From Nitrosospira sp. Nsp14 (GTDB taxonomy: Bacteria; Pseudomonadota; Gammaproteobacteria; Burkholderiales; Nitrosomonadaceae), in assembly GCF_900113575.1 (NCBI RefSeq), contig NZ_FOPV01000001.1, positions 124,001 through 188,000 of the forward strand: a stretch of 64,000 bases of DNA, written 5' to 3'. This document shows, in pieces, positions 57,403-64,000 of this stretch. The position numbers and the translations under genes were made by a program. The notes below the pieces were generated by a model that made no database searches, had not been told where the DNA came from, and was given only the letters and a program-made list of their open reading frames with translations. How positions within the stretch are numbered: position 1 is the first letter of the stretch; each line of letters starts with the position of its first letter.

Positions 57403-58635
57403 CTAGGTCTTGTGGTGCGTCTCAATCTCCAGTCCTACTCCAGACTCGATCTCCGCTCCCGCAGGCCCCTCAACATGCGTGAACGCTTCACTGTCCTCAT
57501 AAGCCAAGTCGGTGGTACCGGTGGCCTTTATCAGCTTACCGGCAATGAGTCCTGTGGCGAACGCAAACGTTACGCTGAACACGATGCCGATGAATTGAGC
57601 CATTGCGATGCCGGGTACGACAAGCATCGCAATAAACGCACCCAATAGACCAGGCATGCCGTGCAGATTATGGACGCCGCAGGTATCCACGATTTTGAAG
57701 CGAGCTTCCAGCGCGGGTTGTATGAACACGTAACCGATGACGCTGAGACCGCCGGCCAACAGACCGATTGCAAAAGCACCTGTCGGTGACACAATATTGC
57801 ATGTTGACCCGATAGCGACGCCCCCAGCCAGTGCTGCGTTTGCCATGTCGACCATGGATGTTTTGCCTTTATGAAAATAGGTGCTCAAGAAATAAGTGCC
57901 TATTGTGGCTCCGCACAGGGCGAGTACTGTATTGACGACGGTCTGCGGCATTTCCTCGAATGGAACAATTGCGGTCGCAAAACTGGGCCAGAAAAGCCAC
58001 AAGACCATTGAACCGAGCATGGCGAAGCGATCAGATGTTGCATCGGATTCGATGGCTTGCATCCGCTGTCGGGAGGTTGTCAGCGCAAGCGACAATCCGA
58101 GGCCGAAGTAGGCGCCAAACGCATGAATGATGACTGACCCGGCGGTGTCCTGATAGCCCTCTGTCAGTCCCATTCCATTATCCAGCACGAGCCATTCGTT
58201 CATGAGGTAGGCGGGAACCAACAAAAGCGCGAGGAGCGCGTATTGAAAAACCCGGAGCCGCCCAAGCACGGCGCCCATTGCAATCAACGCGGTAGCGACC
58301 GCAAATTCCGCGAAAAGCAGGGCTTTGACTGTATTAGGCGCAATTTCATGCGCGAACACGCCGTTGGCGCGGAGCAGCATATAAAAAGGAAGGCCAACGG
58401 CAACCACCAGATAGGTTCCAGTCGTCGCCCCAAAGCCGTATCGTCTGACAAACACCATCAGAAAACCAAAACCTACCAGCAACATGGCAAGGATGTGGAT
58501 AACATAATTGTACTGGGCGACCTGACGGGCTTCGCTCAGCTCGGCGGTGAGATCGCCCTCGCTTGCCCAGGCGCCGAAACACAGCAGAAACAGGTTGGCG
58601 ATACCAAACAGCGTTAAGCAGAGGTTTTTCTTCAT
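57403..58635 (-). CDS. Rh-type ammonia/ammonium channel (Rh50-like)
   Basis: A 410-residue Amt/Mep/Rh superfamily protein with a cleavable-looking signal (residues 1-24) and 11 helices. The stretch D-T-A-G-S-V-I-I-H-A-F-G-A-Y-F-G (163-178) is the Rh signature, not the Amt one. The pore twin-His are H171 and H325 (V-H-N-L-H-G-M-P-G). Rh50 proteins occur in Nitrosomonas and relatives and carry ammonia passively. The C-terminus is acidic. GGGAGGG precedes the ATG. The 304 bases on its upstream side hold no other gene. Confidence 0.93.
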   Translation of the reverse strand: MKKNLCLTLFGIANLFLLCFGAWASEGDLTAELSEARQVAQYNYVIHILAMLLVGFGFLMVFVRRYGFGATTGTYLVVAVGLPFYMLLRANGVFAHEIAPNTVKALLFAEFAVATALIAMGAVLGRLRVFQYALLALLLVPAYLMNEWLVLDNGMGLTEGYQDTAGSVIIHAFGAYFGLGLSLALTTSRQRMQAIESDATSDRFAMLGSMVLWLFWPSFATAIVPFEEMPQTVVNTVLALCGATIGTYFLSTYFHKGKTSMVDMANAALAGGVAIGSTCNIVSPTGAFAIGLLAGGLSVIGYVFIQPALEARFKIVDTCGVHNLHGMPGLLGAFIAMLVVPGIAMAQFIGIVFSVTFAFATGLIAGKLIKATGTTDLAYEDSEAFTHVEGPAGAEIESGVGLEIETHHKT

Positions 58636-58939: not shown

Positions 58940-59722
58940 TTATTTTGTTACGGCCTTCTGGATATCGGCCGCAATGGCATGGTACAGAGAATGAAATATC
59001 GTGCGCATTTCGGTGATAATGTTGGCGACATTCATCATGGCCGGGACCCGCTCGCCACGATGCTCAATTGCTTCCCCAATGCGTTGCAGTTTGACGCCGA
59101 GCTTGCAAAAATGAGCTGCCTGTCTGGGTTCCGTGAGGACGAATAAGGTCTCTATTCCGCTGATACGTGCAAGTTCGGTCGTGCCAAGGTAGAGCCCGAG
59201 CGGAATATAGGGAAAGCGGCGGGATTTTCCTATATCTGAATCTTCATCAGCGAGACTTACCGGGCTATTAGCCTCGCCTTTACGTCGCCGATAGCTTGCG
59301 ACAACGGCGAGCCGCGATACCTCGGCGATACGATCACGGGGTAATCGTGCTGGATCAATAATCGACCGGTCGAGCGCCGTGGCACAGGTTGTTTCGAACG
59401 GCAAATGGTAGTTGGAATCGTCCGGTCGTGGCCGCACGATGCGCGTGCAGCCTATAAATTCCCCCGTCTTAACGCTGCGCAGCAGAAGGTGCAGCGAATT
59501 CGAGTCATGCTCGTCGGTTTCAAGCCTATCTGGCCGCGCGGATTCAAATTGCAGGTCCTCGCAATACACTTGGTGCCGAACGCGATATACCTCGTCCTTA
59601 AGCGCATTTGAGAAAGCCGGCACGATTTCAAAGTATTGATGGAAAATACTGCCCAGGTCGAGGGACTCGGACACAGGCGTTGCTTGATCTTCCACGCCGT
59701 TTGTCGCTATAGTGTTTGGCAC
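58940..59722 (-). CDS. PEP-CTERM/exosortase-associated acyltransferase (LuxI-like fold)
   Basis: A 260-residue protein resembling the acyltransferase family found with PEP-CTERM/exosortase systems, distantly related to acyl-homoserine-lactone synthases. The core has D-E-V-Y-R-V-R-H-Q-V-Y-C-E-D-L-Q-F-E (43-60), matching the LuxI R-x-x-V-F-x-E motif. E-H-D-S-N-S-L-H-L-L-L, T-R-I-V-R-P and I-A-E-V-S-R-L-A-V resemble its later conserved blocks. The acyl donor and product are unknown. It starts with GTG, 13 bases after the LolA-like gene on the same strand. Confidence 0.85.
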   Translation of the reverse strand: MPNTIATNGVEDQATPVSESLDLGSIFHQYFEIVPAFSNALKDEVYRVRHQVYCEDLQFESARPDRLETDEHDSNSLHLLLRSVKTGEFIGCTRIVRPRPDDSNYHLPFETTCATALDRSIIDPARLPRDRIAEVSRLAVVASYRRRKGEANSPVSLADEDSDIGKSRRFPYIPLGLYLGTTELARISGIETLFVLTEPRQAAHFCKLGVKLQRIGEAIEHRGERVPAMMNVANIITEMRTIFHSLYHAIAADIQKAVTK

Positions 59723-59735
59723 TTCCAGTCACTCG

Positions 59736-60488
59736 CTATTCAAGTTTTTTCAGATAGTCTTTCGTAAACATCTTGTCCTCCAAGTCCCGCAGTTTCATTT
59801 CAGAATATTCCAGTGTGGATTTCTCGCCCTGGCGGAGCGCATCTTCCATAACAAGGCGGGTTGGGCGTTGCTTACCCAATATCGTCTGGAAATTCTCATA
59901 ACTAGCCGTCTTGAGAAGGCGATTGGAGAGGGAGTAAAACTCAGCGCGGTAGGGCCAGAAATTAGATTGCCGTACCCAATATAAGACTTTATGATACGTC
60001 ACGCTTTTATCGACGCCCGTTAGGTCGAGGACGTAATAATTTTCACCATTAAGGGCTTCTGTGCGCAAAATTGTAGCGGTATAGTCCCCGGTAAAATTTG
60101 CTCGCGCCAAGTCGCCGTTTGCTACCTGCCCGGTTAGCCGCTGCGATAGTGATAGACGTACTGGCTGGGAAACGTCCGGAACAAAAATCCAGAGGTCGCG
60201 TCCTTTCATCAGCAGTATCTGGCCCCGCTCCGAAGCAGGGGCGGTCTTCATCACCAGGCTGTTCTCGTTGCCCTTGGATAGGACCCGGTATTTATGCATA
60301 TCTTCCGGTTGGGCGGGACCGGTGGTGTTGATTGTGACATCGACCTGAAAACTCTCCCGCGGAAAACGTATCTGGTCCGACTTCTCCAGTATGCTTTGGG
60401 CCAACTCGGGGTCGCCCGACCCGTGGGAAACCGTCGTAATAAATATAAAAATTACCGACAATGAATACTGCAAAGATTTTTTATGCAT
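59736..60488 (-). CDS. LolA-like outer membrane lipoprotein-sorting protein
   Basis: A 250-residue periplasmic protein. A signal peptide (residues 1-23) is followed by a LolA/LppX-like half-barrel domain with D-L-W-I-F-V-P-D-V-S-Q-P and N-Y-Y-V-L-D-L-T-G. Relatives bind hydrophobic molecules and often neighbour ABC or RND exporters. It is divergent from the ABC ATPase gene with 55 bases between and is followed by the acyltransferase. Confidence 0.88.
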   Translation of the reverse strand: MHKKSLQYSLSVIFIFITTVSHGSGDPELAQSILEKSDQIRFPRESFQVDVTINTTGPAQPEDMHKYRVLSKGNENSLVMKTAPASERGQILLMKGRDLWIFVPDVSQPVRLSLSQRLTGQVANGDLARANFTGDYTATILRTEALNGENYYVLDLTGVDKSVTYHKVLYWVRQSNFWPYRAEFYSLSNRLLKTASYENFQTILGKQRPTRLVMEDALRQGEKSTLEYSEMKLRDLEDKMFTKDYLKKLE

Positions 60489-60543
60489 TTCAGTTTCCTG
60501 TTGTGAGTGCCGTTGATCCTCAAGCTGCCCATCAGGAGTCCTT

Positions 60544-61284
60544 ATGAGCCTTGTACGACTTGAGAATGTTTCGAAACATTACACCCTTGGCGAACAGCAA
60601 GTCCAGGCACTCAAGGATGTCAGTCTTTGCATTCACGATGGGGAGTTCCTTGCCATCGCAGGCCCATCAGGTAGCGGCAAGTCCACTCTGCTCAATCTGA
60701 TCGGTTGCATCGATACGCCATCGCTGGGTAAGATTTTCATCAACGGGACGGACGTCAGCGGCCGTACATCAGATGAGCTTTCCGATCTCAGGGCTCGGAC
60801 TATTGGTTTTATTTTTCAAACGTTCAATTTATTTCCGGTTCTTTCCGCCGAGGAAAATGTCGAATACCCCTTGCTACAGTTCAAGGAACTGAGCGCCAAG
60901 GAGCGCCGCCACCGTATCTCGACATACCTTTCCATCGTGGGTCTGTCCAGGTTCGCCACGCATCGCCCTAACCAGCTTAGTGGTGGGCAGCGCCAACGGG
61001 TAGCCATCGCAAGGGCCCTTGCAACGCAACCCAAAATTGTCCTTGCGGACGAGCCAACCGCAAATCTTGACCACAAGACCGGCGAAGGCATTCTCCAGTT
61101 AATGAAAGAAATTAACGGCAATTTCAAGACAACCTTTATTTTCTCCACTCATGACGCGCGTGTGATGGCCATGGCTGACCGAGTCGTATCTATCGAAGAC
61201 GGGCAGCTAACGAAGGAAGAGGTAAGGGATGAGAAGAAAAACGTCAATCAAATGCGCGGCGCCACGCCGACGAAAATTGGGTGA
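60544..61284 (+). CDS. ABC transporter ATPase (LolD/MacB type)
   Basis: A 246-residue nucleotide-binding subunit. Walker A is G-P-S-G-S-G-K-S-T (40-48), the signature L-S-G-G-Q (145-149) and Walker B V-L-A-D-E-P-T (Glu170), with the H-loop in F-S-T-H-D. It is most like the ATPases of LolCDE and MacB exporters, which need an FtsX-type permease; none lies next to it. AGGAG precedes the ATG. The next gene, 18 bases later, is an outer-membrane DUF1302 protein. Confidence 0.92.
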   Translation: MSLVRLENVSKHYTLGEQQVQALKDVSLCIHDGEFLAIAGPSGSGKSTLLNLIGCIDTPSLGKIFINGTDVSGRTSDELSDLRARTIGFIFQTFNLFPVLSAEENVEYPLLQFKELSAKERRHRISTYLSIVGLSRFATHRPNQLSGGQRQRVAIARALATQPKIVLADEPTANLDHKTGEGILQLMKEINGNFKTTFIFSTHDARVMAMADRVVSIEDGQLTKEEVRDEKKNVNQMRGATPTKIG

Positions 61285-61302
61285 TCGAAGGCGCCGGTCA
61301 AA

Positions 61303-62973
61303 ATGGGACGGATGGAAGACAGCGATAAGTTTGGATATGCGATATCCACATCAGCGCTGATTGTATTGCTGCTAAGCAGCTTCGCCGCCCGGGGAGCTGA
61401 TTCTCCCACCGGCACCAGCCAGGAGCGATCAAACTCGGCTAAAGCATATGTCGATGAGCCGTTATCTCTGGCATTGTCTTTGTCCCTGGCATCGTTTTCC
61501 GGGCCATATCCGCCTATGCCAGCCAATGACACCAGTTTGAGCGTGCATGAGGAAGCTCCTATCCGAAACGGAGCGAATGGAACGGGCGCGGACCCAATGC
61601 TCTCGCTATCCCAAACGCTTTCCTCGCCATTGCCCCCGGTAACTGCCAACAAGGACGAGAATTTAGCAGCGATCGCGAAAGATGGCGGAGCCGGCGGATT
61701 TACCTCACGGGAAGCCCTGTTCGGTGGCGATGAGCAGCCAGAAATAAAATCTCCTCCGGTCCCCGCATGGAAAACATTGGTGACGGGTTGGAAGGGATTT
61801 TCTCAAATGGAGATTGCCCAAACCTATGCTGATCCGGAGCATTTTTCCAAGGCAAAGCTGCGGACTGAATTGTCCCGCACCGGGCAATTCAACGAATATC
61901 TTAAATGGAAGATCAGCGGACGGTTTGACTACGACGCCGCCTATGATTTGTCCAATTTTTATCCTTCCGCTGTGCGCCAGGATCAGCGGTACGATTTTTT
62001 CCTGCGTGAGAACTACCTGGACATTTCAGCTGGCAACTTAGACTTTCGCCTCGGTCGCCAGCACGTCATTTGGGGGGAAATGGTCGGCCTGTTTTTCGCA
62101 GATGTGGTATCCGCCAAGGATATGCGCGAATTTATTCTGCCGGCGTTCGATATCCTGCGCATTCCGCAATGGGCGGTTCGGGCGGAATATTCAAAAAACG
62201 ATTTCCATGCGGAAGTGTTGTGGATTCCCGTTCCGACCCTGGACGAGATCGGGAAGCCCGGCGCCGATTTTTACCCTGGCCCGCTTCGAGGAACAGCCAG
62301 CTATATTGAGGAGGACCGCTCCGGACGCAACATTGGGAACTCGAACTATGGGGTCCGTTTATCGCAACTGATAAAGGGGTGGGACGTTTCCGGATTTTAC
62401 TATCACAGCCTAGATGCCGCCTCCACGTTCTACCGGGTGAGCGGACCGACGGAGCCGCTCGTTTTCCAGCCTCGCCACGACCAGATCGATCAGTTTGGGG
62501 CAACTGTCACCAAAGATCTCGGTTCGGCTGTATTCAAGGGTGAACTGGTTTATACCGATGGAAGACAATTTAATGTCGGGCAACCTTCTGCTCCAAATGG
62601 GCTGGTCAGGCAAAATACCCTGGACTATGCGCTTGGTCTCGATTTCAGTTTGCCCGCTGACACTCGCCTGAACGTTCAGTTTTTTCAGCGGGTCTTTTTC
62701 GGATACGATCCCGGTATTTTTTCGGATCGGGTAGAAAACGGGGCGAGCGTTCTTCTCAATGGCAAGCTCTGGCAAAAGCTGGAAGCACAAGTGTTGCTCA
62801 TACATAGCTTAAATCGCAGCGACTGGATGTTCCGCCCCCGGCTGTCGTGGAATTTTCAACGGAATTGGCGCTGGGCGGTTGGAGCCGATGTTTTCGGGGG
62901 TAAACCCACTGGGTTGTTTGGCCGCTTCGATCAGAGCGACCGCGTCTATACAGAACTGAGGTTCTCTTTCTGA
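61303..62973 (+). CDS. DUF1302-like outer membrane beta-barrel protein
   Basis: A 556-residue protein with an N-terminal hydrophobic segment, then about 100 unconserved Ser/Leu/Pro-rich residues. From about 165 a beta-rich region follows with G-R-F-D-Y-D-A-A-Y, L-D-F-R-L-G-R-Q-H-V-I-W-G and alternating strands that end in E-L-R-F-S-F, a typical barrel terminus. DUF1302 members are putative outer-membrane channels for lipids or hydrophobic compounds. It sits 18 bases after the ATPase and is convergent with the desaturase. Confidence 0.85.
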   Translation: MGRMEDSDKFGYAISTSALIVLLLSSFAARGADSPTGTSQERSNSAKAYVDEPLSLALSLSLASFSGPYPPMPANDTSLSVHEEAPIRNGANGTGADPMLSLSQTLSSPLPPVTANKDENLAAIAKDGGAGGFTSREALFGGDEQPEIKSPPVPAWKTLVTGWKGFSQMEIAQTYADPEHFSKAKLRTELSRTGQFNEYLKWKISGRFDYDAAYDLSNFYPSAVRQDQRYDFFLRENYLDISAGNLDFRLGRQHVIWGEMVGLFFADVVSAKDMREFILPAFDILRIPQWAVRAEYSKNDFHAEVLWIPVPTLDEIGKPGADFYPGPLRGTASYIEEDRSGRNIGNSNYGVRLSQLIKGWDVSGFYYHSLDAASTFYRVSGPTEPLVFQPRHDQIDQFGATVTKDLGSAVFKGELVYTDGRQFNVGQPSAPNGLVRQNTLDYALGLDFSLPADTRLNVQFFQRVFFGYDPGIFSDRVENGASVLLNGKLWQKLEAQVLLIHSLNRSDWMFRPRLSWNFQRNWRWAVGADVFGGKPTGLFGRFDQSDRVYTELRFSF

Positions 62974-63028
62974 TCACTGTCCTCGCTTGATTCCGTATGC
63001 CTATATATCGCGTGTCTTACTCATTAAG

Positions 63029-64000
63029 CTATGCCGGGGGCGCCGATTGGGGCCAATTTGCTGGAGCTGCCGGGGAATGTTGTTCGCCCAGTACGCGTCG
63101 CCGAATGAAGTCCCCGTATCCATGCAAAATATTTTCCTGGTGCACGAGGTCTGCCTCCTTATACATCTGATGAACAAGCGGCAAAGTCGCGAATGACAAG
63201 CCAGGATACATGTGGTGGTAGTGATGCAAGGTAAAATTCATATTGGGCAATAGCAGACGCTCCCACCACGAAAGCTCGATCAGGTGTGTGGAGTCATTGA
63301 GTTCGGGAGAATTGACGTTGTACTTGTGCTCGCTCAGGGCACCTAGTCGAACCAAACATTGAGCGACGGTAATCAACGGCAAAACCCAGTACAACAGGAA
63401 ATGTGCCCAGCCACCGCTATACGTCAGCGCGCCTGCGACGATGATCCAGTACGTCGGGCGCACCCACTGCGGGGTGGGATGGCGCCGGCGAAACTCGTCA
63501 CGCACGCCATCTGTATAAGGTTTCTTGCTGCGAATCAGGCGCAGGATATTTAAGCCCAGGATGTCATGCAGGAACAGCCTTGCGAATTGTCCCCGCGACA
63601 TGGGGATGCTCCATTCCGGTCCGGATTTACGCGCGTAATCGGGATCCTTTCCCGTATAGAAGTACTTGTGATGGGCGAGGTGCACTTGAGCGTACCCTTC
63701 GACCGTCAACACCAGCAAGGGATAAGCGGCAAAAAGATTCGTTAACAGGTCACCATAGGGTCCACGGGAGCCCAGCCGATGGACCTGCTCATGAACCAGG
63801 AGCCCAAGCAAATTTTGGCGGGTCGCAACCAGAAATATCGCAATCAGACTCATCCAGACGTTGTCGAGCCAGATCGCAAGTGTGATCGCAATAGTGATTA
63901 CCAACCAGGCGCTGATCAGCTGGCGCATAAACGGAAGGGGGCGTGCGCCAAACAGATTCCTTACCCGAACGCGTATCTCGGCTTCCAGCTCCGGACTGGC
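63029..64000 (-). CDS. Membrane fatty-acid desaturase (5' end beyond window)
   Basis: The open frame continues to the window edge without a start; codons from 63929 to 64000 read plausibly (R-V-R-N-L-F-G-A-R-P-L-P-F), so the ATG at 63928 is probably internal and the first residues are missing. The 323 visible residues carry the three His boxes of membrane desaturases: H-E-Q-V-H, H-L-A-H-H and H-H-Y-H-H. It would insert a double bond in an acyl chain or act as a related hydroxylase. It is convergent with the DUF1302 gene. Confidence 0.88.
   Translation of the reverse strand, partial: ASPELEAEIRVRVRNLFGARPLPFMRQLISAWLVITIAITLAIWLDNVWMSLIAIFLVATRQNLLGLLVHEQVHRLGSRGPYGDLLTNLFAAYPLLVLTVEGYAQVHLAHHKYFYTGKDPDYARKSGPEWSIPMSRGQFARLFLHDILGLNILRLIRSKKPYTDGVRDEFRRRHPTPQWVRPTYWIIVAGALTYSGGWAHFLLYWVLPLITVAQCLVRLGALSEHKYNVNSPELNDSTHLIELSWWERLLLPNMNFTLHHYHHMYPGLSFATLPLVHQMYKEADLVHQENILHGYGDFIRRRVLGEQHSPAAPANWPQSAPPA

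Follow-up and report, generated by a model that had tools for sequence, protein, structure and literature searches.

A candidate synthesis and export locus for N-acyl amino acid type lipids, with a Lol-like transporter, in Nitrosospira sp. Nsp14

We analyzed a 64,000-nucleotide stretch of the Nitrosospira sp. Nsp14 genome (contig NZ_FOPV01000001.1, positions 124,001 to 188,000; "the window") together with the DNA beyond its end, and consider it fairly probable that a locus running across the window's end is a biosynthesis-and-export cluster for lipids of the N-acyl amino acid type, with a modular exporter for tailored products. The part inside the window (58940-64000) holds five open reading frames (ORFs), encoding an acyltransferase of the N-acyl amino acid synthase (NAS) family TIGR03694, a LolA-like periplasmic carrier, a LolD/MacB-type ABC ATPase, a DUF1302 protein, and a membrane desaturase; both LolC/E-like permeases lie past the edge, so the ABC transporter is complete. 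What we observed, and what carries this reading, is the gene content of the locus, its conservation, the co-occurrence of its parts across genomes, and an association between permease type and tailoring genes. A first-pass annotation of the window had proposed joint synthesis and export of an acyl product by five neighboring genes within 5 kb. A profile search confirms all five as members of the families named there, each above its Pfam cut-off, and the gene order stands; the joint function is still something we infer, now better supported by the permease and tailoring association.

Intact orthologues of the carrier, 64 to 80% identical, were found in 32 of 125 Nitrosomonadaceae genomes: 19 of the 23 from the window's genus and 13 of the 85 from the genus holding the Nitrosomonas records. 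The carrier lies within 3 kb of a TIGR03694 gene in all 32 of these loci, and an NAS, a LolD-like ATPase, and a DUF1302 protein are each present in all 32 as well. LolC/E-like permeases occur in 30 (all except L051 and L072), a FeeM-type NAS in 21, and a PEP-CTERM protein in 24, with several of the contigs ending early. The genes usually run acyltransferase and LolA, followed by LolD and DUF1302 in divergent orientation and last by LolE and LolC. Four of the genes first listed as neighbors are therefore neighbors in related genomes too. The desaturase is not; it has matches in only 17 of the 125 genomes, and we reject it as a core part and treat it as optional. By comparison, 20 random 20-kb regions, taken from Nitrosomonadaceae only at positions that we chose, contained no NAS (0/20), PEP-CTERM genes in 6, LolD-like genes in 4, and a LolC/E-like gene in 1. 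Five loci of distant LolA_like paralogues had neither an NAS nor a PEP-CTERM gene (0/5 for each). It is also worth pointing out that distant LolA_like paralogues in the Nitrosomonas genus (L074-L077) have common neighbors of their own and constitute a different transport unit; the stretch fetched around them contains neither an NAS nor a PEP-CTERM gene.

Across the order, 250 genomes drawn evenly and searched with an E-value threshold set separately for each search contained the carrier in 26 cases, TIGR03694 in 28, FeeM in 47, XrtA in 60, and an exosortase in 90. Any NAS was present in 26/26 carrier genomes versus 33 of the 224 without a carrier (P = 3e-19), and XrtA in 25/26 versus 35/224 (P = 7e-17), these and the other P values for co-occurrence being guides. 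Within the Nitrosomonas genus (n = 85), XrtA accompanied the carrier in 12 of 13 genomes and was found in 14 of the 72 without it (P = 8e-7). The dependence runs one way, as the transporter comes with NAS and XrtA, and both of these occur without the transporter. Four NAS genomes lack an exosortase, and their only NAS is of the FeeM type; thus, all 28 TIGR03694 genomes have an exosortase. Together with the near-constant presence of XrtA in carrier genomes, this argues against a separate role for the acyltransferase, which the first-pass annotation had raised. Its companion idea, that the acyltransferase always sits with exosortase genes elsewhere and that its placement here is chance, fails as stated, yet the exosortase link itself is real.

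Strains differ greatly in the middle of the locus, which would be compatible with chance neighbors at a genomic hot spot of variation flanked by rne/amt-like and suhB/trx-like genes. We find this explanation very hard to credit, because the LolA-LolD-DUF1302 unit recurs in other families, often with an NAS nearby and also in other gene orders, and because 14 of 20 fetched order-level loci contain an NAS versus none of the 20 random regions (the same 20 loci have PEP-CTERM genes in 17, ThiF in 12, and LolC/E in 19). The neighborhood is more than chance. On these counts we reject chance clustering for the core; it may still account for the GDSL lipase and the desaturase.

A carrier-alignment pattern scan of genome contigs yielded 169 relatives, of which the best 80 were kept. 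Fifty-seven of the 80 lie outside Nitrosomonadaceae, many of them in Accumulibacter, Dechloromonas, Azonexus, Propionivibrio, or Rhodocyclus (Rhodocyclales). In the fetched flanks of these 57 loci, DUF1302 and a LolD-like ATPase were found in 56, PEP-CTERM genes in 29, LolC/E in 27, an NAS in 23, ThiF in 19, and export or chain-length genes of the XrtA type in 18; contig ends truncate many of these loci, and some of the records also figure among the order-level loci. TIGR03027 and TIGR03007 were confirmed for one protein each among the XrtA-type genes, and a weak export-protein hit occurred in 1/20 random regions. It is possible, though in our estimation unlikely, that the transporter handles another lipid, for example one that is exopolysaccharide-linked or a membrane lipid, or that it works inward, the locus being shared because both functions serve an XrtA biofilm program. 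The XrtA linkage would fit such a cargo, as would the 34 of 57 outside-family loci without an NAS in the fetched flank (14 with XrtA export genes and 20 with neither) and the lack of an assigned function for DUF1302. However, the NAS linkage is the closest one: among the 26 carrier genomes of the order sample, 22 have an NAS no more than 15 kb from the carrier, versus 9 with XrtA within 36 kb. Moreover, within XrtA genomes the carrier tracks NAS (25/25 with carrier versus 26/35 without; P = 0.007), whereas within NAS genomes the XrtA link is weaker and not significant (25/26 versus 26/33; P = 0.07).

The link between the transporter and the product-modifying enzymes comes from the permeases. 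Loci of the window's genus have two permease types, either 65 to 76% or 47 to 51% identical to the LolC of the window's genome, with the carrier at 72 to 80% throughout. ThiF, a nitroreductase-like protein, and a GT1 glycosyltransferase occur together in 6/6 loci with the divergent permease versus 0/10 ordinary ones (P = 1.2e-4), a test that was not blind, as the split had been seen in the identities beforehand, and a count that excludes L039 and L044, whose contigs stop short of the tailoring genes, as well as the permease-less loci L051 and L056-L059. Three u0 proteins were included in neither the ThiF nor the nitroreductase profile. The divergent type forms one fully supported clade in the LolC and LolE trees. 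The trees of LolA, DUF1302, and the acyltransferase instead disperse these six strains, and that of LolD groups L040, L041, and L055 in a clade but not the other three. Divergent permeases also occur with ThiF, a nitroreductase-like protein, and GT1 in another family (L160 and L176), and with ThiF and GT1 in a third (L161). Identities between L040 and L160 are high for LolC (86%), LolE (86%), LolD (83%), ThiF (91%), the nitroreductase-like protein (78%), and GT1 (72%), compared with 61% for LolA, 51% for DUF1302, 57% for the hexapeptide transferase, and 47% for FeeM. The swapped set is not one contiguous block in L160, where the genes for the carrier, LolD, and DUF1302 separate its two halves. 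The carrier and DUF1302 stay native, then, while the permease type changes with the tailoring genes, and they do so in another family as well. As the inner-membrane part tends to be swapped along with product-modifying enzymes, this suggests that the transporter carries that product out. On the simplest reading, each permease type suits its own modified product, and the carrier and outer-membrane protein are general.

The exosortase system has to be weighed here as a source of cargo in its own right. The first-pass annotation saw neither an exosortase nor a PEP-CTERM substrate. The former holds for the whole locus, as no exosortase gene is found there in this genome and both exosortases detected by a PF09721 search, one of them XrtA, are on another contig (contig 8). 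The latter holds for the window only, since two genes with the PEP-CTERM motif lie just past its edge, both on the minus strand (L004:14359-15204 and L004:15778-16671; L004 is on the same contig as the window, and adding 55999 to an L004 position gives the window coordinate). PEP-CTERM proteins partly follow permease type too: one family is present in 3/6 divergent-permease loci of the genus, in 3/3 of those from other families, and in 0/10 ordinary loci, and another is common to both types (L040 and L041 with L046, L049, and L050).

By family, LolC/E and LolA serve to sort lipoproteins, and the system might accordingly be a Lol-like sorter. In that case XrtA would attach a lipid, possibly the NAS product, to PEP-CTERM proteins, and the LolCDE/LolA-like system would deliver either the tagged proteins or their lipid anchor to the outer membrane. 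We hold this to be doubtful, while giving it some weight. The enrichment of XrtA among carrier genomes, both in the order sample and in the Nitrosomonas genus, is in its favor, as are the PEP-CTERM genes in 24/32 family and 17/20 order-level loci versus 6/20 random regions, the XrtA export or chain-length genes in 18/57 outside-family flanks, the PEP-CTERM family that tracks the divergent permease, and the lipid anchoring of archaeosortase substrates in the part seen of PMC7157517. However, members of that PEP-CTERM family are only 27 to 38% identical across families, where LolC is 77 to 87% identical, and the second PEP-CTERM family spans both permease types; permease type follows the tailoring enzymes in 6/6; 35 genomes have XrtA but no carrier; and the literature passages at hand report no lipidation by a bacterial exosortase. 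A bolder form of the idea would make the locus a second, exosortase-linked Lol pathway, with N-acyl amino acids as the lipid that XrtA attaches to PEP-CTERM proteins, the LolCDE/LolA-like/DUF1302 system sorting these to the outer membrane, and permeases tuned to the lipid of each strain; this we judge improbable.

Several observations count against synthesis and export of N-acyl amino acid lipids as the function of the locus. The tests of co-occurrence treat related genomes as independent. NAS is common without the transporter, TIGR03694 matches being found in 113/125 Nitrosomonadaceae genomes (109 above the cut-off) versus 32 with the carrier. Outside the family, 34 of the 57 carrier loci have no NAS in the fetched flank. 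The association with tailoring enzymes is not perfect, as L153 has ThiF, the nitroreductase-like protein, and GT1 with another (non-B) permease and L047 has a close ThiF with an ordinary permease; in addition, the swapped permeases of Nitrosospira adjoin the swapped tailoring genes, and linkage alone could move both. The permease link also falls short of identifying the lipid as the cargo, since one PEP-CTERM family is likewise confined to loci with the divergent permease. Finally, two close relatives, G105 and G106 (L058 and L059), have only broken carrier remnants with internal stops and no transporter genes, and retain the acyltransferase, desaturase (with a stop within the matched stretch), methyltransferase, oxidase, PEP-CTERM genes, lipase, and FeeM. 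Since they keep these other genes with a decayed carrier, the route is dispensable. The loss is a recent one, and the pair could serve as a natural knock-out. The carrier is absent altogether from G100 and G103, and in the latter (L056) a P450 and two large adhesin-like ORFs, recognized by eye, stand in place of the transporter.

The acyltransferase (58940..59722, minus strand) is an ORF whose start lies 13 bases past the stop of the LolA-like gene. It scores 262.2 bits against TIGR03694 (cut-off, 111.95), a family of PEP-CTERM/exosortase-associated NASs, and 57 bits against Acetyltransf_5 (cut-off, 22.4). In a Foldseek search with its predicted model (pLDDT 83), the nearest structures were acyl-homoserine-lactone synthases, namely RpaI (8.7e-10; TM by target, 0.63) and LasI (1.9e-9; 0.68), with FeeM (2g0b; 7.3e-7; 0.73) also among the best, so that the model points to a LuxI/FeeM-type GNAT fold. 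R47, D70, D73, R94, E134, and R137 are invariant in an alignment of 35 relatives, and the BjaI match aligns the first four; LuxI enzymes carry catalytic residues of this kind. That fold and a partial LuxI profile match are what a homoserine-lactone-like signal as product would call for, and we see scant prospect of it: the score against the LuxI family PF00765 (Autoind_synth) is 19.8 bits, below the cut-off of 24, on which ground we reject acyl-homoserine lactone synthesis, while TIGR03694 is matched far over its cut-off, and the genome has a separate TraI-like acyl-homoserine-lactone synthase homologue on contig 27 (L006:9609-10238; 144 bits, below the model cut-off of 292).

The second acyltransferase of the locus, of the FeeM type (L004:18174-18974, minus strand), scores 188.3 bits against PF21926 (cut-off, 27) and closes the locus, with genes named by eye as housekeeping beyond it. 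Craig, Cherry and Brady (2011; J Bacteriol 193:5707) are said to have found that the TIGR03694-type family makes long-chain N-acyl amino acids. Their work on these synthases is cited in the sections seen of PMC11072679, PMC6602434, PMC7293339, and PMC4897644. As excerpted, PMC9762135 describes expression of a meningococcal gene annotated as this family in E. coli to look for N-acyl amides, and PMC11072679 describes how work on a polysaccharide band disrupted a methanotroph gene so annotated along with two more. Nsp14 also has a second TIGR03694 gene on another contig (L005:9392-10375), without a transporter and near genes that by eye encode phosphate-binding-like, porin-like, and GGDEF/EAL proteins. 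An ammonium-transporter-like gene (by eye; window 57403-58635) directly adjoins the acyltransferase; it has the same place in many loci of the genus and is missing there in L046, L047, L049, L050, L054, and L055, among others.

Among the transporter parts, the carrier (59736..60488, minus strand; signal peptide by eye) scores 171.2 bits against LolA_like (PF17131; cut-off, 30) and is an orthologue of NE2245 (PDB 3BUU; profile E, 3.9e-140) of Nitrosomonas europaea. The ATPase (60544..61284, plus strand), divergent from the carrier, scores 123 bits against ABC_tran (cut-off, 25) and 226.3 bits against the LolD profile, below its cut-off of 307.75. The permeases, LolE-like (L004:8295-9506) and LolC-like (L004:9515-10741), both on the minus strand and identified by profile, are of the FtsX/MacB_PCD type and most like LolC/LolE, with lolCE scores of 93.9 and 95.4 bits, below the cut-off of 362.45. 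A separate true LolC/E gene (511.7 bits) lies elsewhere in the genome. With the LolD and LolC/E scores short of the equivalog cut-offs and this separate gene present, we reject a true Lol lipoprotein system. The DUF1302 protein (61303..62973, plus strand; signal peptide by eye, C-terminal Phe) scores 51 bits against its profile (cut-off, 23.2). Its model is poor (pLDDT 53), with a mostly beta C-terminal part, and a search for solved relatives gave none at E values up to 1; it is presumed to be an outer-membrane beta barrel, its shape and role resting on family knowledge.

The window end (64000) falls inside the locus, with the desaturase running past it and eight further recognizable genes lying within 11 kb beyond. 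Genes were called by longest ORF and PEP-CTERM proteins by a home-made rule, either of which can miss genes. The desaturase (63029..64000, minus strand, continuing beyond the window; L004:7030-8100, start codon uncertain) is a membrane fatty-acid-desaturase-fold enzyme by profile, at 104 bits against FA_desaturase (cut-off, 29.7) and 85.9 bits against arginine hydroxylase (below its cut-off of 380). Farther along are an O-methyltransferase (L004:10909-11955, minus), an FAD oxidase (FAD_binding_4; L004:12412-14277, plus, start uncertain), and a GDSL lipase (L004:16843-17832, minus).

In other strains, the variable genes, mostly between DUF1302 and FeeM, include ThiF, the nitroreductase-like protein, glycosyltransferase, hexapeptide transferase, GMC oxidoreductase, SDR, P450, and cupin. 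The profile PRK14852 represents one protein of 989 positions, along which three separate proteins align in order, the FeeM-type protein (90-225), ThiF (312-586), and the nitroreductase-like protein (623-688, weak), all below its cut-off; this arrangement supports one common pathway. The PRK14851/PRK14852 profiles suggest fusions and an undescribed amino-acid-activating step. The ThiF-fold protein at L040:6235-8172 matches PRK08223 ("hypothetical protein") at 458 bits (cut-off, 266) and is paired with an Acg-like FMN oxidoreductase (below cut-off).

Under the synthesis-and-export reading, one or two NASs (TIGR03694 and FeeM type) would transfer a long acyl chain from acyl-ACP onto an amino acid, a step suggested by family knowledge and fold. 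Strain-specific enzymes would then modify the product, here probably the desaturase, O-methyltransferase, and FAD oxidase, to go by their families, and elsewhere ThiF with the nitroreductase-like protein, glycosyltransferase, P450, or GMC enzymes. The LolC/E-like permeases and LolD-like ATPase would pull the product out of the inner membrane, the LolA-like protein would carry it across the periplasm, and DUF1302 would accept it at the outer membrane, with the carrier and outer-membrane part constant and general and the permeases fitted to the modified product. The substrate and the direction are inferred, and each transport step in this scheme is drawn from the likeness to Lol and the shared inheritance of the parts. 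Exopolysaccharide or biofilm functions of the XrtA/PEP-CTERM system are the probable context in which the product acts.

In wastewater plants, ammonia oxidizers and Accumulibacter grow as flocs and biofilms, a setting where such a product may matter. To our knowledge, why NASs sit with the PEP-CTERM/exosortase system has been an open matter since 2011. A transporter that in the order sample is always with NAS (26/26) and nearly always with XrtA (25/26) offers a handle on it. Further handles are the solved carrier structure 3BUU, genes that are clear targets for deletion, and naturally occurring pairings of permease with tailoring genes, from which one can predict which permease goes with which product. 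The role of N-acyl amino acids for their makers is called unclear in the passages seen of a 2016 paper (PMC4897644).

Compared with known systems, the transporter shares with the Lol lipoprotein system its architecture of two permeases, a LolD-like ATPase, and a LolA-like carrier, and differs in its sub-equivalog scores and in coexisting with a separate LolC/E. Structure 3BUU, its carrier orthologue, is titled "Uncharacterized LolA superfamily protein" and so gives no function, whereas the present gene context suggests one. The FeeM environmental-DNA cluster (PDB 2G0B) is likened to the locus by the FeeM-family synthase (188 bits) and the fold of the first acyltransferase. With the PEP-CTERM/exosortase-associated NASs of Craig et al. 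(2011) the locus shares an acyltransferase in that family by profile and PEP-CTERM neighbors; that work is not known to include a Lol-like exporter or DUF1302 partner. The tRNA threonylcarbamoyladenosine dehydratase TcdA is a ThiF-fold protein. A gene so annotated belongs to the stieleriacine cluster of Stieleria maiorica as presented in the portion seen of PMC7293339, and ThiF occurs in relatives of the present locus. That cluster, by the same portion, also has several NAS genes, a desaturase, a methyltransferase, an oxidoreductase, a PEP-CTERM gene, and unspecified transporters; our locus, compared by family only, has the same NAS, desaturase, methyltransferase, oxidoreductase, and PEP-CTERM content. 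The stieleriacine cluster differs in its planctomycete host and in a methyltransferase that resembles a C-methylase. antiSMASH has a rule for clusters of the NAS/PEP-CTERM type, according to the extract seen of PMC6602434. In a literature search that mostly did not cover subscription journals, no paper joined exosortase with LolA, PEP-CTERM with DUF1302, N-acyl amino acid with DUF1302, or NAS with Nitrosospira, and PMC4886054, which brings together NAS, ABC transporter, and exosortase, does not describe this system in the text seen. NASs with PEP-CTERM genes are thus already known, and the Lol-like exporter alongside them appears to be new.

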